From positions 1 through 64,000 of IMG/VR virus record IMGVR_UViG_3300010885_053065: 64,000 nt of DNA; one strand, given 5' to 3'. The number at the start of each line of letters is the position of its first letter. Position 1 is the stretch's first letter. The notes beneath the pieces are model-generated. The model was not told the DNA's origin. It searched no databases and was given only the letters and a program-made list of their open reading frames with translations. Shown here one piece after another: positions 15,360 through 53,393 of the stretch. Position numbers and translations under genes: made by a program. The stretch comes from a virus.

Positions 15360-16811
15360 ATGAAGTACGTAGCAAAGTACAAACCTAATCAGGTAATTTG
15401 TGGTGAAGGTGACACTGTTGTAGTTACTGGCTGGACACCTAAAGAATCTGTCAAAAAGAGACTAGATAAGCTTGGGCTGAGTTACGGGGCTATAGGCAAC
15501 CTTTATAGCCCGACTAGGGGAATATCTTTTTTAGTCAGAAACCTTCTTTACAACCCTCAGATTAAGAATATTTTGATTATTGAAGCTACTAAGGAGGATA
15601 CTAATTCTAGAGCATGTCTTTGTCTAAAAGATTTTTTCTTGCACGGATTCAAGAGAGGAAAAACATCTACAGGTAGAAAAACTTGGTTAGTTGATTCTTC
15701 AGTAGAAGGATATATAGACTCAGAGATAAGTTATCTAGATTTAGATGAGTTACGTAGTTCAGTTTTTATTAAGCCAATTGATTCTCTAGATAAGATTGAA
15801 GAGAGTTATAAATGGTTTGAGACTAGAACTAAATCAGATAATACTAGAGTGCAAAAAGTCTATGAAGATCCAGAGAGTCTGATGCCAACAGTATTACCTG
15901 GCACCAGATACGGTCATAGAATTGAAGGTAAGACAATAGCTGAAACTTGGGTTAAAATCCTCCACAGAATCAAATCTACTGGAACAATTAGACCGACTGG
16001 TTATGACGGACAGTGGCAAGAGTTGATTGATTTAACTGCTGTAGTTACAGATGAACCAAAAGAGTTTTATTTTCCAGAACCAAATTACTTACCAATAGAT
16101 AGAGATTTCTTGACAAACTATATTCCTCAGATACTAGAGGATGCACCTTATAAAGAAGGTGTTAAGTACACTTACGGACAGAGGTTGAGAAGCTGGTTTA
16201 AAGTTGACCAAATAGAACAGGTAATACAGAAACTAATAAAAGAGATAGATGCAGCTAGTGCGGTCATGTCTTTGTGGGACACTCAAGACCATATTAAAGG
16301 TGGGAGTCCTTGCCTAAACCATATTTGGCTAAGGGTAGTAGATAATGAACTGTCTCTTACAGCTACCTTTAGGAGTAATGACATGTTTGGTGCTTGGGTA
16401 GCTAATGCCATGGGTTTAAGAGCCTTACAGGTCTATATTAGGAATGAAATAGCTACTCGTTCTGATTATGATCTTTCGATTGGTCCACTAATTACTATTA
16501 GCCAGAGTGCACACATCTACTCAGATACTTGGGAGCATGCTGATCAAGTAATCGATAAACACTATAGATTTAGACCAGAGTATTCTGATCCAGTTGGTAA
16601 TTTCTTAGTAGAAAAAAGAGGTAAGGATATAGTTGTTAATCAAACTAATCTTTGTGGAGAGATTATCAAAAGTTACTCAAGTGAGAATGCACTTAAATTA
16701 ATTAGAGAGATAACTCAAGATAATCCATCTATACAGCCTTATCATGTTGGCTACCTTGGAATAGAACTAGAAAAAGCTTTTAGTTCTGGTAGTGAGTATG
16801 TTCAGAAATAA
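15360..16811 (+). CDS. Thymidylate synthase (ThyA-fold, archaeal-type with DUF4346-like N-domain)
   Basis: 483 aa. The C-terminal ~250 residues carry the ThyA core: the nucleophile in GGSPCLNHIW, the substrate-binding RSNDMFGAWVANAMG, and the late SQSAHIY motif. This arrangement fits methylation (or hydroxymethylation) of dUMP. The N-terminal ~150 residues (VICGEGDTVVVTGWTPKESV, NILIIEATKEDTNSRA) resemble the domain annotated DUF4346 that accompanies ThyA in archaea and cyanobacteria. Canonical bacterial ThyA is about 264 aa, so this is a two-domain form. Whether it makes dTMP or a modified base cannot be told from sequence alone. Confidence 0.8.
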   Translation: MKYVAKYKPNQVICGEGDTVVVTGWTPKESVKKRLDKLGLSYGAIGNLYSPTRGISFLVRNLLYNPQIKNILIIEATKEDTNSRACLCLKDFFLHGFKRGKTSTGRKTWLVDSSVEGYIDSEISYLDLDELRSSVFIKPIDSLDKIEESYKWFETRTKSDNTRVQKVYEDPESLMPTVLPGTRYGHRIEGKTIAETWVKILHRIKSTGTIRPTGYDGQWQELIDLTAVVTDEPKEFYFPEPNYLPIDRDFLTNYIPQILEDAPYKEGVKYTYGQRLRSWFKVDQIEQVIQKLIKEIDAASAVMSLWDTQDHIKGGSPCLNHIWLRVVDNELSLTATFRSNDMFGAWVANAMGLRALQVYIRNEIATRSDYDLSIGPLITISQSAHIYSDTWEHADQVIDKHYRFRPEYSDPVGNFLVEKRGKDIVVNQTNLCGEIIKSYSSENALKLIREITQDNPSIQPYHVGYLGIELEKAFSSGSEYVQK

Positions 16812-17192: not shown

Positions 17193-17512
17193 GTCACCTA
17201 ACACATCACTTGTCATAGCTTTGGTAACATTATTATTAAGGCTTACTTGGTTGACGGTCTTAAACCGTCACCTAACACATCACTTGTCATAGCTTTGGTA
17301 ACACTTTCGCGTAAGACTTACCAGATCTTGTCACCTAACACATCACTTGTCATAGCTTTGGTAACTGCTTTGAGAGGATGCCTTGCTGGTTGAGGTGGTC
17401 AGCTAGTCACCTAACACATCACTTGCCATAGCTTTGGTAACTAACTTAGCCTTATCTACTAACTCGAAAAATCTAGGTCACCTAACACATCACTTGTCAT
17501 AGCTTTGGTAAC
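17193..17512 (+). CRISPR. CRISPR array: five 36-bp repeats, four spacers
   Basis: Repeats at 17193-17228, 17267-17302, 17330-17365, 17406-17441 and 17477-17512 begin GTCACCTAACACATC and end GCTTTGGTAAC. They are identical except for one T-to-C change in repeat 4. Spacers are unique and 38, 27, 40 and 35 nt long, a wider range than in most arrays. The repeat ends form a weak dyad (GTCACC/GGTAAC). The plus strand is the likely transcribed strand because a promoter-like site precedes repeat 1, the downstream hairpins need G-U pairs formed only by the plus-strand RNA, and the anti-repeat then lies 3' of its scaffold as in type V dual guides. No cas1/cas2 is in the window. Confidence 0.92.
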
Positions 17513-17780
17513 CCCTCCTATCCGAAGCCTTGCTATGAGCTGATTACAACACCAGTTTGCGAGGGATAGAGTTTCATTTATTAACATCCAGCAATAAAGT
17601 ATAAACAAAATGGGCGAAAACCTTGCTAGGTAATGTCGCGAGGGATTATAAAGAAACAAGAGTTAGTTACAAAAGGTATGACAAGTTTTGTGTCTTCTCG
17701 CTTTGGAATAATCCTCTACGAATAAAGGCGGTAGGAGCGACCACCTATCAAGTTAATTGACTCGATATATCTATTATAGT
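17513..17780 (+). ncRNA. Candidate tracrRNA with anti-repeat
   Basis: This 268-nt gap between the array and the cas12-like gene contains, at 17666-17693, a segment complementary to the last 28 nt of the CRISPR repeat at 24 positions. Two hairpins precede it: CCTTGC (17528) with GCGAGG (17559), and CCTTGC (17621) with GCGAGG (17638). Both stems need a U-G pair that only plus-strand RNA can form. Scaffold hairpins followed by a 3' anti-repeat is the order in tracrRNAs of type V-B and V-K systems. The ends are unknown. Confidence 0.7.
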
Positions 17781-19184
17781 TTATTCAAAAATATCAGATT
17801 TATTGATATTTTTGAAAACTTCTATTGCTGCTGTAGCTGAAGATTCAGTAGAGGATTTAGTTATCCTAACAACCTCTTTCTTTTTGCTGACAACAGGGAA
17901 TATTTCTAAACCAACTCTTTTTATATTGATTCCGGCATTAATATCTCTATCGATAAAAAGTTCTAATTCTTTATCAAAATACTCTCTAATTGAGCAATCA
18001 GTAAATACAAGCTCATCTCGATAGGAAAGTAATTGAGAAGTATATGCAGGATTAACTTTAACTACTTTAGCGTCATATTTTTGAGCAACCCATGTCAATA
18101 TCTCAACAAATTGTCCAAAAGCTGCATCTTGCCATGATTTATTTAAACCAGATTTAGATGATTGACCGTTAGGTAAATACGTTCCATCTTTATCTTGTTT
18201 GGCTTTATTTCTTTTTGTTAATCCTTTTAGATTTAAGTCTTCAACAAAGAATACTTTTTTGCCAGTTCTACACAAAGCATGAGCAATTTTATATTGAAAA
18301 TCTTTTCTTTGTCTAGCTATATGTTTATGAAGTTTAGCTTCTTTTATAGCTGCTTTTTTTCTTCGATTAGACCCTTTTTGTTTTTTAGCTTTTTCCTTAG
18401 AAATCTCAGCTAATTTATCTTGAGACTTCCTAAAAGCTTTCAATGAGTTGAGTTTTTCGCCTTCTGATGTTGCTAAATAAACATCATCTTTTAATACAGC
18501 ATCCAAGCCTATGGAATTATCCCAAGTTGGTAAAATTTCATCATCAATCTTGGTAGTAGTATGATCATCAATAATAAGCAATATATACCAACCATCTAGT
18601 TCTTTAGTGATACCAATCTGCTTAAGAATAAAACTTTCTGGTAATGGTCTATGAAGGTTAATTTTTACGTTCCCTATTTTTGGGATTCTAATTAACTTTT
18701 GTTTATTACTAATGTCCTCTTTTAACCAATTATCTTTAACGTTCTCAAAAAATAACGTTGTGTAGTCCTTACTTCCTTTGAACTTAGGTCTACCACTACG
18801 ATTGCCACTAGAATCTCCTTTAAGAAATCTTGTAAAAGCTAAATCAACTCTTTTACAAACGTTTTGCATTACAGAAGAATGTGGTTTAGCAAAATCTAGT
18901 ATTTCTCCTGAATGTTGAACAGCTACAGGAGATTTGTTTAATACAGCTATTTGTCTTTTTTGACTGTAATAATTCGGGCTATCTATCTTTGCTGATATTG
19001 AACAAGTAAGCGGACATCTATCAATTAAACAACTGTTATGACGTATGTTATTCTCTTCATACCAAGCAAAACGTTCACCAATCATTTTGTTATACCAATA
19101 TCGGCATATTCTCAACCAAATATTAAGTTCTTCTTCTTGTTCTTTTGTTTCAAATTCAATGAGGTATTTACGAGTGAGAATCAT
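17781..19184 (-). CDS. Cas12-like RuvC nuclease (TnpB-derived, compact type V effector)
   Basis: 467 aa. The RuvC active site is complete: Asp228 in SIGLDAVL, Glu315 in FFVEDLNLKG and Asp414 in DRDINAGINI. A basic helical segment separates RuvC-I and II (KKQKGSNRRKKAAIKEAKLH), as in TnpB and Cas12. Unlike canonical TnpB (the intact one here is at 26556), the CxxC...CxxC zinc ribbon is gone: only Cys397 remains and the region reads NPAYTSQLLSYRDELVFTDC. Loss of the ribbon and adjacency to a CRISPR array with an anti-repeat support a guide-dependent effector over a transposon TnpB. Its size fits the smallest Cas12 classes (V-U type; V-U2 and V-U5/K are known from cyanobacteria). It is transcribed opposite to the inferred array strand. 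PAM and activity are unknown. Confidence 0.8.
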   Translation of the reverse strand: MILTRKYLIEFETKEQEEELNIWLRICRYWYNKMIGERFAWYEENNIRHNSCLIDRCPLTCSISAKIDSPNYYSQKRQIAVLNKSPVAVQHSGEILDFAKPHSSVMQNVCKRVDLAFTRFLKGDSSGNRSGRPKFKGSKDYTTLFFENVKDNWLKEDISNKQKLIRIPKIGNVKINLHRPLPESFILKQIGITKELDGWYILLIIDDHTTTKIDDEILPTWDNSIGLDAVLKDDVYLATSEGEKLNSLKAFRKSQDKLAEISKEKAKKQKGSNRRKKAAIKEAKLHKHIARQRKDFQYKIAHALCRTGKKVFFVEDLNLKGLTKRNKAKQDKDGTYLPNGQSSKSGLNKSWQDAAFGQFVEILTWVAQKYDAKVVKVNPAYTSQLLSYRDELVFTDCSIREYFDKELELFIDRDINAGINIKRVGLEIFPVVSKKKEVVRITKSSTESSATAAIEVFKNINKSDIFE

Positions 19185-26543: not shown

Positions 26544-27875
26544 CTACCCGTCGCTCTAGGAGCGCGGGCTTCCAATTTCAATAGGAATAACGTCTAACAA
26601 AACCGAAGTTTTACCAGCCCGACTTACATTCCCTCCATTGGCAGTGTCGCTAGTTCCTAACGACAATAATCGCAAGCCTTCTTCTCTTATGTTTATCGCT
26701 GCATTTATATCTCTATCGTGTTGAGTATGGCAGCTAGGGCACTCCCAATGTCTTACATCTAAGGGCATTTCCGACACTTTGTACAAGCAATTACTACAAG
26801 TCTTAGAGCTAGGAAACCATCTATCTATCTCTAGATAAACCTTTCCTTCTTTCTCTGCTTTGTACTTGAGCATTGTCCCAAACTTACCCCAACTAACATC
26901 ACTAATAGCTTTAGCTAATTTATGGTTGCGTACCATCCCTTTGACATTTAGATTTTCTACGACAATCACTTGGTTATCGTTGACTATCTTGCGAGATAGC
27001 TTGTGTAAAAAATCTTCCCTACAGCGACTTATTTTTGAATGTACTTTAGCTACTAATTTTCTAGCTTTATTTCTTGAGTTACTTCCTTTTTTCTTCCTAT
27101 TAAGTTTCTGTTGCTTCCTCTTAAGGTTCTTCTGATGTTTCTTGAAGTGTTTAGGATTATCGTATTTACTGCCATCACTGGTAATAGCAAAATGATTTAA
27201 TCCTACGTCTATTCCTATAGCTTTCCCTTCGATTATTGTAGTAGTAGAAGATTCTAATCCATTGTCTGTCAGAATAGAAGCAAAGTATTTACCATCTGGA
27301 TTCAGTGAGATAGTTACAGTTTTAATACTGCCCTCTATTGGTCTATGAATCTTACAGTAAATCTCTCCTATCTTAGGAAACTTAATCGCCTCATCTAATA
27401 TAGTTACTCGCTGAGGATAGCTAATAGATTGTTTACCATGCTTGGATTTGAAACTAGGTAAACCCGCACGTTTCTCAAAGAAGTTTTTGTAAGCAGTAGA
27501 TAAATTGAGTGCTACTACTTGGAGACATTGAGAGTAAGCATCAGACAGCCATTCATATTCTTTCTTTAGATTAGGTAATAAACCCTGAATAACTCCTCTT
27601 GATAGACCTTTACCTGTAGTCTTATAGGTTTCCTGACAAAGATTCAAGCTATAGTTCCAATACCACCTTACACATCCAAACGCCTTTGCTAGTTGCGTTT
27701 GCTGTTCATTAGTAGGATAGATTCTGAACTTATAGGCTTTATACATTTATCAGTTTTCTGTATTACTGCTACAAGTCTAGCGCAACAAAAGGAAGATTGC
27801 CAAAGATTCTAGACAATGGTTTGCTGTCAAAATTCATCCCGACGCTTATTAAGCGCGGGACTTCTTTTGGATTGA
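26544..27875 (-). mobile_element. IS200/IS605-family (IS1341-type) element carrying tnpB only
   Basis: About 1.33 kb. Both ends hold similar hairpins: CCCG-CGCTT/AAGCG-CGGG at 27838-27859 and CCCG-CGCTC/GAGCG-CGGG at 26547-26568. The left flank target reads TTAAC. There are no terminal inverted repeats or target duplication and no tnpA, so it would need a transposase in trans. It interrupts a Bro antirepressor gene. Confidence 0.75.
26556..27746 (-). CDS. tnpB: TnpB RNA-guided nuclease, canonical
   Basis: 396 aa with an intact RuvC site (Asp180 in GIDVGLN, Glu264 in VVENLNVKG, Asp346 in DRDINAAINI) and an intact zinc ribbon (Cys317, Cys320, Cys336, Cys339). TnpB proteins use an omega RNA from the 3' end of the element. 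The right-end hairpin at 26547-26568 overlaps the last codons, where that RNA is normally encoded. It serves here as the contrast for the ribbon-less Cas12-like protein at 17781. Confidence 0.92.
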   Translation of the reverse strand: MYKAYKFRIYPTNEQQTQLAKAFGCVRWYWNYSLNLCQETYKTTGKGLSRGVIQGLLPNLKKEYEWLSDAYSQCLQVVALNLSTAYKNFFEKRAGLPSFKSKHGKQSISYPQRVTILDEAIKFPKIGEIYCKIHRPIEGSIKTVTISLNPDGKYFASILTDNGLESSTTTIIEGKAIGIDVGLNHFAITSDGSKYDNPKHFKKHQKNLKRKQQKLNRKKKGSNSRNKARKLVAKVHSKISRCREDFLHKLSRKIVNDNQVIVVENLNVKGMVRNHKLAKAISDVSWGKFGTMLKYKAEKEGKVYLEIDRWFPSSKTCSNCLYKVSEMPLDVRHWECPSCHTQHDRDINAAINIREEGLRLLSLGTSDTANGGNVSRAGKTSVLLDVIPIEIGSPRS

Positions 27876-45273: not shown

Positions 45274-45960
45274 TTAATCAACATCTGATTGGTTGGATTG
45301 AGCAATATAAGAGATTAACTCAAGAAATCTACCACCACGCTTAGTAGATATCAATTGCTCTGTTGAGTGAAAATCTAATACTGAGTAGAGTTTAAATAGA
45401 TTCTGAGATTTGTAGACACCTGATAGTATCTCTGTCTTAGTGCATCCAAGAGACATTAACAGTTCAAAATAACCTAAAAACTCTATTAGCTCTTGTCTAT
45501 TTATAGTAAGTAGATTTATCTCAAAAAGTACAGGAAATATTTCTCTACTATTAGCTTCTTTAGCTAAGAATAAAATATGCTTTTGTCCAGATTCAGCTAT
45601 AGCAATAGTAAAAGGCGGTTCAGGAGGGTTAACAAGCCATTCTCTAATCTGTGGTCTTGTGGGTAAGTCGGTTACTCTATCACCTTCAATCTTAGGGTAA
45701 GACTCTTTCTCTGAAATTAACCAAGACCAACAACGACCAAATAATAGTACTTCTTTTTGACTATGTGGATTATAGTATTTAAGTCTTAGAGGGATAACGT
45801 AATGACAACGATCACATAACTTATCAGAGGTTGGAGACTTAGCTGAACTGTGAGCCGTGAAACTGTCTTTTAGTATTCCTTCTTTAGGTTTGGTGGCAGG
45901 AATTGAACCACAGAGATAGCATGAGTCTTTTATTTTAGTGTCACTAGTCACGTCACTCAC
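45274..45960 (-). CDS. csf1: Csf1-like large subunit of type IV CRISPR-Cas
   Basis: 228 aa. Two CxxC pairs, CYLC (Cys14, Cys17) and CDRC (Cys49, Cys52), frame the segment IPATKPKEGILKDSFTAHSSAK, the pattern of Csf1 (CxLCG ... F.D...A ... CxxC). The rest is alpha/beta without a nuclease motif. Csf1 is the Cas8-like subunit of type IV complexes. The start codon (GTG) lies within a CRISPR-repeat-like sequence, and a truncated copy of its 5' end is found at 47220-47297, so the N-terminus was rebuilt by recombination. It overlaps the upstream gene by 4 nt. Confidence 0.8.
   Translation of the reverse strand: MSDVTSDTKIKDSCYLCGSIPATKPKEGILKDSFTAHSSAKSPTSDKLCDRCHYVIPLRLKYYNPHSQKEVLLFGRCWSWLISEKESYPKIEGDRVTDLPTRPQIREWLVNPPEPPFTIAIAESGQKHILFLAKEANSREIFPVLFEINLLTINRQELIEFLGYFELLMSLGCTKTEILSGVYKSQNLFKLYSVLDFHSTEQLISTKRGGRFLELISYIAQSNQSDVD
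45868..45929. repeat. csf1 5'-end duplication, intact copy
   Basis: 62 bp matching 47233-47294 at 58 positions. It covers the CYLCG zinc-finger codons of csf1. Confidence 0.85.
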
Positions 45961-46046
45961 CTTGGCTTTGGTAATAGTTCTCTTGGAGAGTTGGGAGATT
46001 TGTGTGCTATGTCACTAAACACGACACTTGCCTTGGCTTTGGTAAT
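45940..46046 (+). CRISPR. Degenerate CRISPR unit: repeats D1 and D2 with a 35-nt spacer
   Basis: D1 (45940-45975) and D2 (46011-46046) match each other at 31 of 36 positions and match the array repeat at 17193 at 25 and 28 of 36, in the same plus-strand orientation. The 35-nt gap is a normal spacer length. Both repeats also lie inside coding frames: D1 carries the csf1 start and the end of the 120-aa gene, D2 its C-terminal codons. Confidence 0.7.
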
Positions 46047-46319
46047 ACTAAAATTGTGAACTGCATAAAGAGAAGTGACATCCTCAAAAATGATTTTCTC
46101 TTTAATTTTGAGATCTTCTAGGCTATCGTAATCTACAGGCTCTCCATCTTCGGTGAGCAAGAATATATCCTGAGCGCCTATTCTGAGTGCATAAACTACA
46201 TCAGGACGACTAGGCAGTGAGACGCTGTAAAGGGTATATTGTCCCATACTAATAAGGCTTAAAACAGCATCTGGGAGTTTACTGAGACGACTTTTTGGGA
46301 TGGACGAAGTGGTGATCAT
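45957..46319 (-). CDS. Hypothetical protein ending in CRISPR-repeat sequence (120 aa)
   Basis: 120 aa. The first ~90 residues form an alpha/beta domain of unknown family (YTLYSVSLPSRPDVVYALRIG). The last ~30 residues (ITKAKASVVFSDIAHKSPNSP...) are translated from the degenerate repeats D2 and D1 and their spacer. The native C-terminus was probably replaced when repeat DNA moved in. Overlaps csf1 by 4 nt. Confidence 0.5.
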   Translation of the reverse strand: MITTSSIPKSRLSKLPDAVLSLISMGQYTLYSVSLPSRPDVVYALRIGAQDIFLLTEDGEPVDYDSLEDLKIKEKIIFEDVTSLYAVHNFSITKAKASVVFSDIAHKSPNSPRELLPKPR

Positions 46320-46496
46320 GGCTCTATCCTCTCTTTATTAGCTAATCTCAAAGTTGTAACAGATTACCAACTTGTTACCAAAAGATGATGGTGGCTAAAG
46401 TGAAGTAAATGGGTATTAATGGTTAACTAAGCATTATGCTCAATTTATGGATTACATTCTACCTACAATCTAGCTCACTAAAAATATTTATTTCTG

Positions 46497-46532
46497 GTCA
46501 CTAAACGCGTCACTTACCTTGGCTTTAGCAGT
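46497..46532 (+). repeat. Degenerate CRISPR repeat D3
   Basis: 36 bp, 23 of 36 identical to the array repeat and closer to D2 (shares GTCACTAAAC and CCTTGGCTTT). Lies between two small genes. The flanking stretch 46320-46496 shows no gene. Confidence 0.6.
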
Positions 46533-46546
46533 AGCCTGTCTTTAGT

Positions 46547-46807
46547 TCAAGAGTAGATCAATTCAGCTATTCGTTTTTCCTCAGCCAGAAATTTTAATAA
46601 GTTATCGGGAAGCGGAACAGCTTGTAACTCAATCCAGTACAAACAATGTCTTGGCGCAAATTCTATATCACGATCTGTAGAAGATCCTACGGGAAAGCCA
46701 TTCATGTCTAAATATCTCAACACATCAAACAACTCCTCTTTGTCTTTTGTCCTAAATATCAACTTTGAAGAATTGCGAGGTGACTGCAAATATATTTCAT
46801 ACATCAT
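46547..46807 (-). CDS. Hypothetical protein (86 aa)
   Basis: 86 aa with a compact alpha/beta pattern (MMYEIYLQSPRNSSKLIFRTKDKEELFDVLRYLDMNG). No recognised family. It sits between a degenerate CRISPR repeat and a tnpB remnant, so it may be cargo of the decayed module. Confidence 0.5.
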   Translation of the reverse strand: MMYEIYLQSPRNSSKLIFRTKDKEELFDVLRYLDMNGFPVGSSTDRDIEFAPRHCLYWIELQAVPLPDNLLKFLAEEKRIAELIYS

Positions 46808-46809
46808 TT

Positions 46810-47150
46810 TTACCTTAATAGATGATAAACTTTATTGTTACACAACAAAAAACTTTTACCTATTTTCTCCAAACCTTTATTTAATATGTTGATTGCTGCA
46901 TTTTGATCCCTATCTAAAACACATTGACAGTGTGGGCATTGATGCAGTCTTACACTTAAAAGTTTTGGCACTTTTTCACCGCAACTTGAGCAATTCTGAG
47001 AAGTGTTGTGGGGGTTAACTTCTATTACTTGAACTCCAAACTTAGAAGCTATTTCCTTTAGTCTTAAAACAAAATAACCCCATGCTGCATTAGAAATAGC
47101 TTTAGAAGGATTTTCACAGTAAATTTTTGCATAACAGGATCGGTAGAGCC
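46810..47150 (-). pseudogene. C-terminal remnant of a tnpB gene
   Basis: About 113 codons: YCENPSKAISNAAWGYFVLR ... NPHNTSQNCSSCGEK ... CPHCQCVLDRDQNAAINIL, then a stop. The zinc ribbon and last RuvC motif are kept; the RuvC-I and II parts and the start are missing. The ribbon marks it as ordinary TnpB rather than the Cas12-like type at 17781. It lies in the interval between csf1 and the csf1 5' fragment. Confidence 0.8.
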
Positions 47151-47219
47151 AAAACTTTTTTCATATGACACTCCGATAGTTTTTATTAGCGAGAAATCAA
47201 AAAGCCTAGAGTAATCTAG

Positions 47220-47297
47220 GCTGATAGTGTGGTTTAGTATTCCTTCTTTAGATTTGGTGGCAGGAATCGAACCACAAAGATAGCAAGAGTCTTTCAC
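47220..47297 (-). pseudogene. Truncated csf1 5' end
   Basis: GTG KDSCYLCGSIPATKSKEGIL matches residues 11-30 of Csf1 and then diverges. This is probably the original csf1 start, left behind when the intervening 1.3 kb entered. Confidence 0.75.
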
Positions 47298-47311
47298 GCA
47301 ATCTACAAATA

Positions 47312-47671
47312 TTATTTAAGTTTTTTCTCTATTGTAGTGGTGATGGTCTGATTGATAATCATAAGCTCTTTCTTGTTTTCGGTAATAGTTATAGTATGTT
47401 TGGTATCTTCTCTTACAGAATTTACTTCTGTATCATCTCTATTGGTATTAATAACTTTTTTAGAATAATCTACATCATACTCAATTCTTTTTATGTTGCA
47501 TGTTTTAGGTTGTAAATTACAACTGGGTTGAATACTGGTAGAGCATCTATTTAAATTTGATATTTTGCAAGCTGGCGTGTTTTTAAGAGTCTCAAGATCT
47601 TCTGCTAGCACACTATTTGTATTTACTTCTAATGCAATAAAAAGTAATAAAATAAACAATGAAATACGCAT
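47312..47671 (-). CDS. Secreted Cys-containing protein (119 aa)
   Basis: A clear signal peptide (MRISLFILLLFIALEVNTNSVLA, cleavage near residue 23) is followed by a ~95-aa extracytoplasmic domain with four Cys (ACKIS, RCST, SCNL, TCNI) and Thr/Asn-rich strands. An exported protein within a CRISPR-Cas operon is unexpected. It may be an unrelated lysogenic-conversion gene. Confidence 0.6.
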   Translation of the reverse strand: MRISLFILLLFIALEVNTNSVLAEDLETLKNTPACKISNLNRCSTSIQPSCNLQPKTCNIKRIEYDVDYSKKVINTNRDDTEVNSVREDTKHTITITENKKELMIINQTITTTIEKKLK

Positions 47672-47789
47672 AAGTTAAACCCCTGTTTCTTTATGATTTA
47701 TTAATATTTTAACAACAAAATATAGTTTTCTGTATACACTTTTCATTGTTTTAAGATATTCTCGTTTTATATTTAATAGTTCCGATAAT

Positions 47790-48374
47790 TTAAACAAACA
47801 CTCCACAACCTAACTTGTGTTTACCGCCAATACCTGACACTTGAAGCTTAATAGAATCTTCTTTACTTAAGTTAAATGCTTTAGCTTTAAACCCTACTAC
47901 AGTATAATTCCTCTCACTTCTTGGGATGCGTATTGTCAGTCTTTCTAATACTTCAATATCTGCTTTAATCTCTAACTTATCTAGTTGTTTATCTGCTGCT
48001 ATTTTAAATAGCTCTGGAGTGACAGCATTCTTGATTACAACCAATCTAGCTATTAACTCTGTTTTACCTTCTAGCATCCTATATAAAGGGTTTCCTAGCC
48101 TTATTTGGTAGCGCATTATCTTAAGGTTAGAGTCTTTAAGTTTAGTAAATAACTTGGCGTTATCTATAGTTGTTCTGATTAACAAAGTAGATTTATCTGT
48201 TAATTTAATCTCTCCATTGTTGTTAGGGAGTCCAGTTATTGTGTTAATAAAAACTTCCTCTAGACTATGGAGTTCTTGTATTTTTGAACACAAAGCAGAG
48301 TATAGATAATAATTATGGTCAGCATAGAGAGACTGACCATAAACAGGGAATAGAATATCAACAAATTGAGACAA
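47790..48374 (-). CDS. cas6: Cas6 family endoribonuclease, Cmx6-like
   Basis: 194 aa. The N-terminal VDILFPVYGQSLYADHNYYLYSAL and C-terminal SGIGGKHKLGCGVFV (181-194) are the characteristic ends of Cmx6/Cas6: an RRM-type start and the glycine-rich loop. Cas6 cleaves CRISPR repeat RNA to make crRNAs. Type IV-B loci normally lack cas6, so its presence suggests this complex can be loaded with processed guides, perhaps from repeats of the D/R family. A catalytic His cannot be assigned with confidence. Confidence 0.8.
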   Translation of the reverse strand: MSQFVDILFPVYGQSLYADHNYYLYSALCSKIQELHSLEEVFINTITGLPNNNGEIKLTDKSTLLIRTTIDNAKLFTKLKDSNLKIMRYQIRLGNPLYRMLEGKTELIARLVVIKNAVTPELFKIAADKQLDKLEIKADIEVLERLTIRIPRSERNYTVVGFKAKAFNLSKEDSIKLQVSGIGGKHKLGCGVFV

Positions 48375-48393
48375 GTTAAATTAATTTCTCCAG

Positions 48394-49161
48394 TTACTGT
48401 AGAGACAAACTAACCAAGTTAAGTTTGTCTCTAGTCTCGTTCAAATCTTTTTCTATGTAATCTGAGACTGGAAAATCACTAAAAATATCAACAGAGTTTA
48501 CTCCTATATTCCAAGCTTTAACAATGCGCTCAGTTTTAAAATAATCAACTCCTTGTGCTTCTAAAAATATCTGTAGTTGCTCCAACAATAGAATAGGAGG
48601 ATTGCAGCGATTTATCATTCCTTCTTCAAAAGCAATTATTTCTAGTTCTCCTTGTACTGTAGTAGGAACATCTAGTAATATATGGTGAAAATCATGAACC
48701 AAGATATAGCTAGACGGAAACATTGATGGTTTATCTACTGTTGCTACGTTTCCATTATTTTGATAATACTGGTGTAGAGCATATCCTACTGTTCCCTTCT
48801 TACAAAAAGGAAGTTTTTTAAAAAGTTTTATATTTTCTGGGTTAGGAGTTAATGATTCTAAGAAATAGCTTTTGAGTCCAATTAATTTATCTTTTAAAGA
48901 CATAAAAGGCAATATTTTTGGCATTGTTTGTGTCCTTAAAGTACAAGTTGGTCTTACGTATTCAAACCTTATTCGGCTAAAGATCTGCCATAAATTAGCA
49001 GAAGTAACACCTAGTAAATTAACTGGTGTCAGTAAACTTACTACATCGATTTCTGGTTTAACTAATTTAATAATTTCTTCTCTATTTTCTGCTTGAATAA
49101 TTCGATTAAATAGATTATTATCGGTCAAAACTTGTTCAAGAAAATTAAGTTCAACAGTCAT
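48394..49161 (-). CDS. Coq4-family protein in CRISPR operon
   Basis: 255 aa with the Coq4 metal-site signature HDxxHx11E seen exactly: His156, Asp157, His160, Glu172 in LVHDFHHILLDVPTTVQGE. Coq4 acts in ubiquinone synthesis in eukaryotes and some bacteria, but cyanobacteria use plastoquinone, so another role is likely. It overlaps cysH by 11 nt, which ties it to the CRISPR operon. Confidence 0.75.
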   Translation of the reverse strand: MTVELNFLEQVLTDNNLFNRIIQAENREEIIKLVKPEIDVVSLLTPVNLLGVTSANLWQIFSRIRFEYVRPTCTLRTQTMPKILPFMSLKDKLIGLKSYFLESLTPNPENIKLFKKLPFCKKGTVGYALHQYYQNNGNVATVDKPSMFPSSYILVHDFHHILLDVPTTVQGELEIIAFEEGMINRCNPPILLLEQLQIFLEAQGVDYFKTERIVKAWNIGVNSVDIFSDFPVSDYIEKDLNETRDKLNLVSLSLQ

Positions 49162-49882
49162 AAAATGCCTCAGTTACATTCTGTTTTAAATATGAGTATA
49201 ACATAGGATTAAATCGCTTCATGTTCTCTAAAGAGGTTTTCTGTAAGGATTTGTTTTTGTTAGCAGAATACCAATAATTAGCATGAGCATTGGTTCTACT
49301 TGTTTTACGGTCTAATTTGTCATACAAGTCCAAGTAAGGAATATCATAATAAAAAAGATAAGCCCAAACATCCTGCCATGACCACCATGCAAGAGGACAT
49401 ACTCTATAGTATCCTTTATGTTTTCCTGTTTGGTATTGATGAATTAACCCGTATTTTTTTAGAGATCTTCTTCTATTAATACTTTCTTCTGCTCTTAGCC
49501 CAACAAAAGCCACACTGTAATCAACTACTGCATTTATCCTGTCTTGGACTGTATCAGAAGTAGCAGCATTCTCTTTTTGAGCTTTAATATCTAAATACTT
49601 AGTTGGAAATTTCTCACAATACCTAGAGATTGTTTCCGAGTAATTAGAAACATAATCTTGCTCTATTGAGCTATAACAAACTGCAGCAATATCAGGTTTA
49701 ATTTGTTGGCAAAGGTGCAACATTACGGTTGAATCTTTGCCCCAACTAATAGCTACATAAGAGTCACCAATCTCTAGAGCTTCAGAAATTATTTGCTTGG
49801 ATTTCTCTACTCTTTTTTTAAAGCTATCTAGTAGCGCATAACCTCTATAGGCTTGATATTCTGGATCATCTTTTAAAAGCAA
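49151..49882 (-). CDS. cysH: CysH-like protein of type IV-B CRISPR-Cas
   Basis: 243 aa PP-loop ATPase/PAPS-reductase-fold protein: ISWGKDSTVML (45-55) is the nucleotide loop and VGLRAEESINRRRSL the substrate-site motif shared with PAPS reductase and DndC. cysH-like genes are the established accessory partner of type IV-B loci; their function is unresolved. It lies 3 bp from the csf3-like gene. Confidence 0.85.
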   Translation of the reverse strand: MLLKDDPEYQAYRGYALLDSFKKRVEKSKQIISEALEIGDSYVAISWGKDSTVMLHLCQQIKPDIAAVCYSSIEQDYVSNYSETISRYCEKFPTKYLDIKAQKENAATSDTVQDRINAVVDYSVAFVGLRAEESINRRRSLKKYGLIHQYQTGKHKGYYRVCPLAWWSWQDVWAYLFYYDIPYLDLYDKLDRKTSRTNAHANYWYSANKNKSLQKTSLENMKRFNPMLYSYLKQNVTEAFYDC

Positions 49883-49885
49883 CTG

Positions 49886-50584
49886 TCAATTAGCATTGGT
49901 TTTTAACCTAGGCTTCTCCTTAATCTGTCTTACATTGTCTTTTGGTATATAACACAGTACTTGATTCTGATGCATCCATGATGGTGTTTTCCAAGCCACA
50001 ACCATCATGTCATGCACCTCTAAATCTAGTTGCTGTGCCATCTCTAAAGGAATTGGTCTTGTGACACGTCTTTCTTTCTCAAACGACCAGTCATAGTCAA
50101 TTTCTTTAACTGACCACTCAGAGACATAAGCAAAGCCGTAGGATCTCTTTTTCCCTAAGTGAGTAACTGTAGATAGAGCTAACTTTATCTGCTCTTTATC
50201 TCCTACTACAAACCAGTCAATCCTTTCAGTAAGCTTCAAGAATAGAGGTAGATCATAAGACTTGAATTGACCATCTGAGCCAGAAAACTTAGCCTTCTTC
50301 TTACCCCAATCAAGATGCTCACTTTGATAATCCCACCGTTTTCTATATCTATCAGTACTCTCTATAGAGTATAAGTAGTGAGGACTAGAAGCTTGATAGA
50401 AACCTAGTTCATGCTTTTTAATTGGTAACTCAATCTCAGTTAAAGTCTCAAAGGTTACGTTAGTGTCAAGTCTACCAGTTGATTCTCTAACTGAGTACTC
50501 TATTATCCCTGTGATATCAGGAGAAAGATTGTCTGTTACAGCAATAGGTCTAGCTAGATTAGCTGTTATTTGTAAAGGAATCAT
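49886..50584 (-). CDS. csf3: Csf3 (Cas5-like) subunit
   Basis: 232 aa. An N-terminal RAMP-type strand (MIPLQITANLARPIAVTDN) and a glycine-containing GKKRSYGFAYVSEW loop near the middle fit Csf3, the Cas5-like subunit that caps the crRNA 5' handle. Gene order next to cysH and csf2 supports it. Overlaps the upstream gene by 4 nt. Confidence 0.75.
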   Translation of the reverse strand: MIPLQITANLARPIAVTDNLSPDITGIIEYSVRESTGRLDTNVTFETLTEIELPIKKHELGFYQASSPHYLYSIESTDRYRKRWDYQSEHLDWGKKKAKFSGSDGQFKSYDLPLFLKLTERIDWFVVGDKEQIKLALSTVTHLGKKRSYGFAYVSEWSVKEIDYDWSFEKERRVTRPIPLEMAQQLDLEVHDMMVVAWKTPSWMHQNQVLCYIPKDNVRQIKEKPRLKTNAN

Positions 50585-51144
50585 GGCTTACTTAAATCCA
50601 ATTGATTACAAAGTTTATCTATTACCAAGTGATAAACAGTACCACTAGAGCCAGACTCATGTGTGTTAATTAATAGTTCAACTAAAGCAAAAAAACTTAA
50701 AGGTCCTTGAAGCGTTACGTCCAACTGCAAAGAAGAAATAACATTTTTTATCTTCTCAGCAAGAACGTTTAGTAGACACTTTTTAATCGAGATTCTTGAT
50801 GGCTCAAAAAGATGTACTGATAGATAAATATAGGCAGCAACTAGGTCAATTAGTGAGTGTTCTTCTGACTCAATATCAGTTGCTTCTGTTGTGGATAATA
50901 CTGATTCAATTGTTGTCATTTCTACCTGATTAATTATTTCTATTTGTTGTGATTCTTCTATTTTATCAATTGTCTCTTCTTGCTCAGTAATCCCAATACC
51001 GTGCTCATTTAGATATTTCAAATACCAATTACGCATCGTTTTAGGAGGAACCAAAGGGAAATCTTTATAAAGTCTTCTAGGTTGACTTCCATTTCTAAAC
51101 CTATTTAATATCTCTGACTTGTACTTGTCTCCTCTACTAGCCAT
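50581..51144 (-). CDS. TerS-like HTH fused to a helical (Cas11-like) domain
   Basis: 187 aa. Residues 1-50 (RGDKYKSEILNRFRNG ... LVPPKTMRNWYLKYLNE) are a close relative of the HTH in the phage terminase small subunit at 25213. After an acidic linker (~50-95), residues ~95-187 are all helical (LVAAYIYLSVHLFEP ... CLLNVLAEKIKNVI), the size and character of a Cas11 small subunit of type IV-B. The Cas11 assignment rests on position and fold type only. Confidence 0.6.
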   Translation of the reverse strand: MASRGDKYKSEILNRFRNGSQPRRLYKDFPLVPPKTMRNWYLKYLNEHGIGITEQEETIDKIEESQQIEIINQVEMTTIESVLSTTEATDIESEEHSLIDLVAAYIYLSVHLFEPSRISIKKCLLNVLAEKIKNVISSLQLDVTLQGPLSFFALVELLINTHESGSSGTVYHLVIDKLCNQLDLSKP

Positions 51145-52307
51145 TATCCAAATACTCCCTTGATTTCACTGTTATTACTTTTAATAAACTCTCGATAATC
51201 AGCCAGATAAGATTTATATCTCTCTTGCTGTAGACTAGCTCTACTTTCTAATACTTGATGTCCATCTTTAATTGATATCCAACTACCTGCTTCTTCTCCA
51301 CTAGAGTAATAAATCTCTACAGCAACTCTACCGAAACCTGTATTACTCATCCCTCCTAAATAAGGATTCTCTGCCCAATTGCTAATAGCATCAGCTATAA
51401 ACCCTTCCTCAATATCAGTAACGTTAGCATCCCACCGAGAGTAGAGTTTTGCTCCTTGCTGTATTAACCATGCACCCATAATCATTTGATTAGACTTTTG
51501 TTTCTCTTCTTTTTTCTCTGTACTATCTCCAAATAAAGATTGTTGTCCTTCTTTAGATGCAGCAGGCAATAAGTACTTAACAAGAGAAGGATCATGGTGT
51601 GAGTCCATTCTTACCTTTTGGTTATAGGTTAACCAGTGTGGGTAAGGTCTGAGAATCTCTTGTAGGTAGGGTAGCCAATACTTTAGAGTTTCTTTGTAGC
51701 TAGTATCGTCTAGCGTCTGTTCTCTCTTAAAGAGGAAATTAGAGACTCTTGTTTCCTCTAAATCTTTTTTAGCTTGAGAGATAGCTTTTAACCCCTCTAA
51801 AGCAGCTGCAGGTAAAGCAGGTTGAAATATTTGAAACTGATTTAAGGCTGACTCGTAACAAATAAGCATTGCATCGCCAACATTAATCCGACCTGGAATC
51901 ATTTGAGCATCTTTACCACCAAAGACTCCTTTAGGTTTAGCTGTTCCTAGTACTGATATAGGAGGTAAAAACTGTCTTATCTTTTTATCAAGCTCTAGAT
52001 CATTAGCTGTACCACCATCAATTGCACCACCACAGAACAAAGTATGATGCAAGATTGGAGATACCTGTATCCCTAGTTCACTTAAGAAAGAATCGACTCC
52101 TACACGTCTTAATATTCTGTTCCTTAGTGCGTTACCTGAGAGACAAAATACTTGGCTAGGATTGCCTTCTATATCGGTTATAGCTAGAGTTTTGAGGTTA
52201 GCTTGATTGCCTACTGATTCTCCAATATGGGATAGAGGTGACAAAGTTTCTATTACTAAGTGAAAAGTAATTCTGTGGCGTTGGTTCGGGTTGTAATTAT
52301 TTGGCAT
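51144..52307 (-). CDS. csf2: Csf2 (Cas7-like backbone) subunit
   Basis: 387 aa. An RRM-like start HRITFHLVIETLSPLSHIGESVGNQ and VFCLSGNALRNRILRRVG are typical of Csf2/Cas7 of type IV; the C-terminal GGMSNTGFGRVAVEIYY supplies the final glycine-rich element. Csf2 polymerises along the guide RNA to form the complex backbone. Overlaps the TerS-HTH gene by one base. Confidence 0.85.
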   Translation of the reverse strand: MPNNYNPNQRHRITFHLVIETLSPLSHIGESVGNQANLKTLAITDIEGNPSQVFCLSGNALRNRILRRVGVDSFLSELGIQVSPILHHTLFCGGAIDGGTANDLELDKKIRQFLPPISVLGTAKPKGVFGGKDAQMIPGRINVGDAMLICYESALNQFQIFQPALPAAALEGLKAISQAKKDLEETRVSNFLFKREQTLDDTSYKETLKYWLPYLQEILRPYPHWLTYNQKVRMDSHHDPSLVKYLLPAASKEGQQSLFGDSTEKKEEKQKSNQMIMGAWLIQQGAKLYSRWDANVTDIEEGFIADAISNWAENPYLGGMSNTGFGRVAVEIYYSSGEEAGSWISIKDGHQVLESRASLQQERYKSYLADYREFIKSNNSEIKGVFG

Positions 52308-52616
52308 TTAACTATTAATTATCTCCTCTTCATCTGGATAAACCTTTGTGGTCTTTTCACTTACGTAATAAATTTCAAGATTTGGACAAAGAGACAATAT
52401 TTTGTCTGACTCTTCTTGTCGTCTTTGTTTTTCATACTCAATCATTTTATCTATTAACAATTCTTCATCTTTTTCTTGATGAGCGTCTACAAGGAACTTA
52501 GCTACTTTATCTAAATTTCTACTTATTTCATTGGGATTATTACAATCAATAGACTCTACAAACAATCGTCCTGCATCATCTGGAGTCAACTTCTCTATCG
52601 CCTTTTTAGACATCAA
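52308..52616 (-). CDS. Hypothetical helical protein (102 aa)
   Basis: 102 aa, charged and helical with a C-terminal acidic strand (VSEKTTKVYPDEEEIINS). Tightly packed between csf2 and the 170-aa gene (11-nt overlap). Unknown; possibly a regulator or subunit of the CRISPR complex. Confidence 0.55.
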   Translation of the reverse strand: MMSKKAIEKLTPDDAGRLFVESIDCNNPNEISRNLDKVAKFLVDAHQEKDEELLIDKMIEYEKQRRQEESDKILSLCPNLEIYYVSEKTTKVYPDEEEIINS

Positions 52617-53118
52617 TTACATCCTCATCTTCTTGTTTATTGAGCCATAAAGCTTTATCTTCTTCATGTTTTAAGCGAACATATAAAGCGACAATTTGTG
52701 ACTTTTCTAGACACTGTCTTAATACGGCTCTATCGGTTATTCCAAACTGAATAGACCACCGTTTTATTATATCTTCCCAAGATTCCCACACTAAAGACTG
52801 ATCTGAGTCAATCTGTTGTATTTCTCCTACATTTCCATCCTCAGCTTTAGCTGCTCTTAAAATTACTTGTTGAGGTTGAACTAATCTAGTCCACTCTTTA
52901 GGTTTAAGTGTTGGAACAACCAATCTTTTAGAGAGATAGTGAATATAGTCGTTTAAGTTTCTAGAGGGAATAGCAGCATTTTCTATTGATGTTTGAACAT
53001 ACTCCCAAGTCTTAATTCCGTTAGCAGGAGAACGTTGTTTGTCACGGCATCTAAATACCCAATAAGTTAAGGCGCTAGCTAAAGCTATTGGTTTGTCTTC
53101 TGTATTAATTCCTAACAA
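52606..53118 (-). CDS. Hypothetical helical protein of CRISPR operon (170 aa)
   Basis: 170 aa, mostly helical with conserved-looking aromatic and charged blocks (ALTYWVFRCRDKQRSPANGIKTWEY; DRAVLRQCLEKSQIVALYVRL). It could be an alternative Cas11-type small subunit. It overlaps both neighbours. Confidence 0.5.
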   Translation of the reverse strand: MLGINTEDKPIALASALTYWVFRCRDKQRSPANGIKTWEYVQTSIENAAIPSRNLNDYIHYLSKRLVVPTLKPKEWTRLVQPQQVILRAAKAEDGNVGEIQQIDSDQSLVWESWEDIIKRWSIQFGITDRAVLRQCLEKSQIVALYVRLKHEEDKALWLNKQEDEDVIDV

Positions 53119-53393
53119 ATTCTTGTCCCTATTTCTATTAATAATTTTCCGTCAGAATCTAATTGATATTCTATAAATTCTAACTTACGGTAAACAATTT
53201 GATTACCTGTGTGATAACACTTGTTTATCTTTATACACATATATTCAATTGACGGAGATTTGTATTTTTTTAAATGATTCTGTAAACGCTTTTTACAATC
53301 TTCTAGATTATAAAAATTTCTTCGTTCAATACAATACTCTGTTTTTTTAGAGATTAAATCTACTTTAATATACTCAAAATAATAAAAAAACAT
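53112..53393 (-). CDS. Hypothetical protein (93 aa), first gene of the CRISPR operon
   Basis: 93 aa, basic with many aromatic residues (MFFYYFEYIKVDLISKKTEYCIERRNFYNLEDCKKRL). No family. Directly downstream of an AT-rich region that probably holds the operon promoter. Confidence 0.5.
   Translation of the reverse strand: MFFYYFEYIKVDLISKKTEYCIERRNFYNLEDCKKRLQNHLKKYKSPSIEYMCIKINKCYHTGNQIVYRKLEFIEYQLDSDGKLLIEIGTRIC

Follow-up and report, generated by a model that had tools for sequence, protein, structure and literature searches.

How does a type IV-B CRISPR (clustered regularly interspaced short palindromic repeats) complex obtain its RNA? Systems of this type are described as typically devoid of a CRISPR RNA (crRNA)-processing enzyme (PMC8175902), and their function, the source of their RNA and the role of their CysH protein have been named as open questions (PMC8175902, PMC7937560). 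An operon at positions 45,274 to 53,393 of the viral DNA analysed here, in which csf genes are accompanied by a gene for a Cas6, bears on all three. The DNA analysed (the window) comprises positions 1-64,000 of IMG/VR record IMGVR_UViG_3300010885_053065, an 89,719 bp record that is probably a complete tailed phage, since one 123-bp sequence both opens and closes it. We found that the operon is a Cas6-equipped variant of type IV-B without an array of its own, that Cas6 and Csf2 have had different histories and that the cysH gene is exchanged as a cassette. Taken together with its relatives, the operon suggests that the virus seizes or misuses host guide RNAs through the complex.

Composition and classification of the operon

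The initial annotation had proposed a type IV-B set of csf1, csf2, csf3 and cysH on a phage, together with a helical small-subunit candidate and a Cmx6-type Cas6. PADLOC type IV and Pfam profiles matched the set at the positions listed in Table 1, the small-subunit candidate was recovered as Cas11, and each of the proteins for which a profile search had been suggested (Csf1-3, Cas11, Cas6/Cmx6 and CysH) found its match. The Cas6 is genuine: in addition to PF09559, it matched TIGR02807 (cas6_cmx6; 3e-45) with 154.6 bits against a curated cut-off of 98.85, and the C-terminal glycine-rich loop (GxGGxxxxGCG) is present. All four zinc-finger cysteines of Csf1 are invariant in an alignment of 43 rows. 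NCBIfam matches also exist for Csf1, Csf2 and Csf3 of the window, all of them under the curated cut-offs, and we therefore place the operon in a divergent type IV-B branch. Transcription runs on the minus strand in the order cas11, a 102-amino-acid (aa) open reading frame (ORF), csf2, a 187-aa ORF, csf3, the cysH-like gene, the Coq4-like gene and cas6, with csf1 (45960-45274) lying downstream of cas6 beyond a scrambled stretch.

Two further points in the annotation held in part. The operon indeed contains no nuclease, and neither a DinG-type helicase domain (Helicase_C_2) nor Cas1 was matched anywhere across the 89.7-kb record, but the phage carries a Cas12/TnpB-like gene elsewhere. Repeats described as adjacent to the operon do occur near csf1, but they are degenerate, and the intact array of the phage adjoins the Cas12/TnpB-like gene instead; a CRISPR array at the operon itself was rejected, only three degenerate repeats being found there.

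The locus has a csf1/csf2/csf3 core, cas11, a cysH without the catalytic cysteine, neither DinG nor adaptation genes and no array, all as expected of type IV-B, and departs from that type in possessing a crRNA-processing enzyme (Cas6/Cmx6), for which reason we class it as a IV-B variant, distinct from ordinary members of the type. Among solved structures Csf2 was closest to that of IV-B (7jhy, 5e-5), followed by IV-A (8rc2, 4e-4), a ranking obtained outside a full IV-A/C/D/E reference tree. The type IV-B system of Mycobacterium sp. JS623 (7jhy) likewise consists of Csf1, Csf2, Csf3, Cas11 and a CysH-like protein and is without DinG or Cas1; unlike the operon described here, which is phage-borne and includes Cas6 and a Coq4-like gene, it has neither Cas6 nor an array (PMC7937560). 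Type IV systems on phages have already been reported, according to the citations in PMC10848311 and PMC11656645. The Bathyarchaeia virus Fuxivirus also encodes a type IV-B set that includes CysH, but there the locus contains a mini-array and Cas6 is unmentioned (PMC10848311), in contrast to the Cas6 and the purely relic repeats at csf1 in the window.

The Csf2 family is encoded by 55 related viral contigs, and no Csf2 or Cas6 of these families was found in named phages. The nearest non-viral Csf2 found is on a plasmid of Gloeobacter morelensis (44% identity, the best among plasmids), where a Cas6 is also present; because of this carrier, and because the relatives of Cas6 are cyanobacterial, the hosts are probably cyanobacteria. 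Across the related loci (L numbers below; G numbers denote contigs) cas11-csf2-csf3-cysH make up the conserved core, csf1 is encoded close by or elsewhere in the genome, and Cas6 is present in 21 of the 60 loci and once more in the whole contig of L067.

Cas6 and Csf2 have different histories

The nearest Cas6 proteins outside phages belong to type I-MYXAN systems (NCBI naming; their Cas7 is annotated as type I-B) on cyanobacterial plasmids, where they occur with cas3, cas5, cas7 and mostly cas1/cas2. The window Cas6 is 44% identical to a Nostoc Cas6 of this Cmx6 kind, and among solved structures the profile of the family was nearest to a type I-B Cas6 (8fcj, 4.6e-53). The resemblance does not extend to the surroundings: no such Cas3, Cmx8, Cas7 or Cas5 stands beside the phage Cas6, and neither Cas1 nor an I-MYXAN-like array was found on the phage.

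Identity to the Cas6 of phage L004 is only 34-38%, yet the Csf2 proteins of the two are 67% identical. In the Csf2 tree the window, L020, L004, L005 and L006 form one clade (100/100), which the Cas6 data reject (approximately unbiased test, p-AU 0.0005), and Cas6 has therefore followed a history different from that of Csf2. A single clade of phage Cas6 was rejected as well (p-AU 0.0004), so that more than one origin or replacement in phages is indicated by the sequences; as the Cas6 trees have long branches and the host sample consists of seven sequences, the number of transfers is uncertain. In close pairs Cas6 is under purifying selection, the ratio of non-synonymous to synonymous divergence (dN/dS) being 0.12-0.39.

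CysH is exchanged as a cassette

We compared 124 locus pairs in which Csf2 is at least 85% identical. The identity of CysH in these pairs is 56% at the median and drops as low as 28%, against values for Cas11, Csf3, Csf1 and Cas6 that never fall below 76.7%, and alleles of CysH that are 30-55% identical occur between operons that are otherwise 97-100% identical. Loci L028 and L030, for example, have identical Csf2 and are 97-100% identical in DNA until approximately 150 nucleotides (nt) into cysH; the rest of cysH and the partner gene are 41-59% identical, after which cas6 is back at 97-99%. A sharp break and return of this kind is also seen in L005/L006 and L048/L049. Synonymous divergence (dS) is 0.8-1.6 in cysH compared with 0.02-0.37 in its neighbours, and because synonymous sites diverge too, the difference reflects replacement; fast evolution is ruled out by this jump and by the sharp breaks. 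CysH is thus exchanged as a cassette.

The CysH tree contains two deep clades (100/100), and Csf2 clades are rejected by the CysH data. A Coq4-like or cupin gene adjoins CysH in 13 of 16 rows of one deep clade and in none of the 21 of the other, or, when proteins are grouped by loop motif, in 13 of 17 linked SWGKDS proteins and 0 of 32 SGGKDS proteins, counts that include near-identical loci and are not independent. The window CysH is of the SWGKDS type and has a Coq4-like partner, in which the motif HDxxHx11E is invariant across aligned homologues. The top Foldseek matches of its AlphaFold model are of the Coq4 family (E 0.025, probability 1.00, TM-score ~0.4), weakly suggesting a Coq4 fold.

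Two observations on CysH and its neighbours were made in passing. Locus L040 (1393-8662) contains a tandemly duplicated type IV block in which csf3, cysH and csf1 are repeated and the CysH copies come from both deep clades. In L031 (13666-14774) two proteins of approximately 212 and 156 aa, without a Pfam match, are encoded between cysH and csf1 and may be additional partners of CysH; L050 has, judged by eye, a comparable pair.

A possible role in the capture of host crRNAs

Our working hypothesis, which we hold tentatively and at somewhat less than an even chance, is that the Cas6-equipped variant captures host crRNAs as a counter-defence and that CysH and its partner make up an interchangeable effector. 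In the type IV-B complex whose structure is solved, RNA carries a filament built of Csf2 and Cas11 (PMC7937560), and Csf2, Cas11, Csf3 and Csf1 of the phage would likewise assemble an RNA-binding filament, using guides encoded elsewhere. Cas6, being of the cyanobacterial I-MYXAN kind, may cut and hold the repeats of host crRNAs, which the complex would thereby capture and withdraw from host immunity. As hosts differ, Cas6 would be swapped for a fitting one whenever the module is transferred. The exchangeable effector would be CysH, accompanied in one of the two clades by a Coq4-like protein or a cupin; as a PP-loop ATPase it would probably adenylate either the RNA or a target brought by the complex.

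That a Cas6 of host type was recruited repeatedly and that the operon has no array argue for the capture of crRNAs, and CRISPR transposons provide a precedent for the Cas6-mediated use of host crRNAs (PMC11656645). The proposed effector role of CysH draws on its PP-loop, its missing ECG motif and its pattern of swapping. That the phage is a hijacker of guide RNAs in the full sense, with a Cas6 fitted to host repeats and a CysH cassette (alone, with the Coq4-like protein or with a cupin) by which the captured RNA or its target is modified, we consider rather doubtful. Silencing or tethering, as suggested for the complex in the initial annotation, is a possible role.

Several observations weigh against crRNA capture. 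When a type I-E Cas6 and an array were co-expressed with the studied type IV-B complex, no enrichment of crRNA resulted (PMC7937560). Most related loci have no Cas6, and the core must for this reason work without it. H20, our guess at the active-site histidine of Cas6, is substituted in two groups. The array repeat of the phage is at most borderline similar to I-MYXAN repeats (p 0.02-0.46), and the best solitary I-MYXAN-like repeat in the phages, at 24/36, was not a convincing case. When spacers from three host I-MYXAN arrays were compared with the phages, they shared no exact stretch of more than 16 nt with the window phage. Spacers of the phages matched no target either: among all collected loci, 100 of them gave nothing above chance length once matches to the arrays and to closely similar spacers were set aside, and the host was not found.

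Alternative explanations

The complex may instead coat RNA without guides, as a sponge or filament on abundant RNAs, with Cas6 merely trimming RNA ends and CysH modifying nucleotides or RNA, either to protect the phage or to disturb its host. Binding of non-specific RNA is indeed known from the type IV-B complex that has been studied (PMC7937560), and the many loci without Cas6 are as this explanation would have them. The repeated gain, from host CRISPR systems, of a type of nuclease specific to repeats is hard to explain in these terms, and we regard guide-free coating as having a real though low probability.

Unlikely, in our estimation, is a supply of crRNAs from the phage's own arrays, in which crRNAs made by Cas6 from the array at 17193-17512 would be lent to the type IV complex for the silencing of rival phages or host genes and the repeats beside csf1 would be remnants of a former array of the complex. 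In its favour are the copies immediately upstream of csf1, one of which includes the start codon, the arrays present somewhere in several csf phages and the mini-array known from Fuxivirus. The intact array, however, lies 28 kb from the type IV operon. Upstream of it, beyond a gap of 268 nt, stands the gene of a Cas12/TnpB-like RuvC effector, and this gap contains an anti-repeat. The anti-repeat match of 26/36 was reached by 0 of 2000 shuffles (best shuffle 23), and the anti-repeat folds onto the first array repeat with a z of -2.85. Because the Cas12-like gene and the anti-repeat adjoin it, the array was assigned to a type V-like locus; its candidature as a type IV array was judged unlikely on the same grounds. 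Positions 17193-19184 make up a type V-like locus with a putative trans-activating crRNA (tracrRNA)-like RNA. In its Cas12-like gene, anti-repeat and array it resembles types V-U and V-F (Cas12u, Cas12f); unlike these it is accompanied, 28 kb away, by a separate type IV locus, where nothing beyond decayed repeats and a relic of the TnpB type lies at csf1.

Nor do arrays regularly accompany Cas6 among the relatives. No array was seen in the cas6-bearing contigs G002, G008 and G031 (~80 kb each), similar type V-like arrays occur in csf phages without Cas6, and no association between Cas6 and arrays was found among long contigs. Where four further cas6-bearing contigs do have arrays, the neighbour is a Cas12-like gene in G000 and G012, an IscB-like gene in G001 and, in G018, a type I-E locus that encodes a Cas6e of its own. 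The repeats beside csf1 surpass the best match in five shuffled genomes (22/36) and adjoin a zinc-finger relic of the TnpB/Cas12f type and a duplicated csf1 fragment; we read them as the probable remains of a second type V-like element inserted at csf1.

A third explanation, that Cas6 is a separate anti-CRISPR gene, in the operon by chance and acting alone on host pre-crRNA, has in its favour the ~1 kb between Cas6 and the core in L005-L007, its varying position and its discordant tree, but most loci with cas6, that of the Gloeobacter plasmid included, have it inside or adjoining the csf genes, and we consider this explanation quite improbable.

Other arrays and nucleases on these phages

The four spacers of the window array share a loose AAGxCTTxCT motif and are 27-40 nt long; the exact array repeat was found in IMG/VR only in its own record. 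A second intact TnpB-like gene is located at 26559-27746 of the window (Cas12f1-like_TNB, 4.7e-27). Arrays beside Cas12-like genes of ~580-630 aa were seen in the csf phages L048 (18489-19270), L051 (16340-19150), L059 (19899-21125), L130 (17268-18300) and L104 (6815-7100); one array of L051 has up to 28 repeats, and two different array/effector pairs are adjacent there. In L088 (2234-5700), from the phage of L004, an IscB-like RRXRR/HNH gene lies between two arrays with GTTGCAAATAGGTTAAGAAGGCAACAGGTTAGAAAC-like repeats, a candidate for a CRISPR-associated IscB on a phage. L098 (677-6500), a csf phage and the contig of L044, encodes type I-E Cas7e, Cas5e and Cas6e (Pfam) followed by an array of hairpin repeats. 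L008 (14094-14714) encodes a second, diverged Csf3-like protein adjoining a 467-aa protein that resembles, by eye, a 483-aa window protein (15360-16811) encoded upstream of the type V-like array.

Table 1. Features of the operon, of the repeats near csf1 and of the type V-like locus (window positions)
Feature	Position	Strand	Basis
cas11, type IV small subunit	52606..53118	-	PADLOC typeIV_Cas11 4.6e-13; homologues are 58 ORFs in related loci
102-aa ORF between cas11 and csf2	52308..52616	-	no homologue in profile searches and related loci
csf2 (cas7)	51144..52307	-	PADLOC typeIV_Cas7 5e-43
187-aa ORF between csf2 and csf3	50581..51144	-	no family or homologue in profile searches and related loci
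csf3 (cas5)	49886..50584	-	PADLOC typeIV_Cas5 1.2e-38
CysH-like PP-loop protein, clade CysH-1; the swapped gene	49151..49882	-	PF01507 (PAPS_reduct) 4.5e-16; CysH tree; SWGKDS loop, no ECG
Coq4-like partner	48394..49161	-	PF05019 24.1 bits (cut-off 22.9); HDxxHx11E invariant; AlphaFold/Foldseek
cas6, Cmx6 / I-MYXAN type	47790..48374	-	PF09559 7e-51; TIGR02807; 8fcj
Duplicated 5' csf1 fragment	47222..47297	-	89% identity over 73 nt; repeat family D1
TnpB/Cas12f-type C-terminal domain relic (zinc finger)	46816..47100	-	PF07282 1.7e-21
Degenerate CRISPR-like repeat	46497..46532	-	24/36 to array repeat; 79% to 45939 copy
Degenerate CRISPR-like repeat	46011..46046	-	28/36 to array repeat
Degenerate CRISPR-like repeat holding csf1 start codon	45940..45975	-	25/36 to array repeat
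csf1 (cas8-like large subunit)	45274..45960	-	PADLOC typeIV_Cas8 2.3e-25; zinc-finger Cys
467-aa Cas12/TnpB-like protein	17781..19184	-	PADLOC Cas12f 1.6e-44, Cas12u2 2e-43; OrfB_IS605, Cas12f1-like_TNB
Predicted anti-repeat of tracrRNA-like RNA	17666..17701	-	26/36 match; fold onto first repeat
Intact array, five 36-nt repeats, spacers 38, 27, 40, 35 nt	17193..17512	-	strand inferred from neighbouring gene

Implications for type IV-B systems

In the literature searched, outside which lie the three main type IV surveys, we found no report of a Cas6-bearing phage branch with multiple Cas6 origins or of the exchange of CysH cassettes with Coq4-like or cupin partners, nor any earlier link of such partner genes to type IV-B. 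The occurrence of a host-type Cas6 alongside the complex in a group of phages points to a possible source of its RNA, and one that is directly testable. CysH is replaced while the complex around it stays constant, which marks CysH as the part under changing selection and recommends its treatment as the effector together with its partner genes. Were the phage a hijacker of host guide RNAs, type IV-B would gain a function, and CysH would be its variable effector under diversifying exchange.

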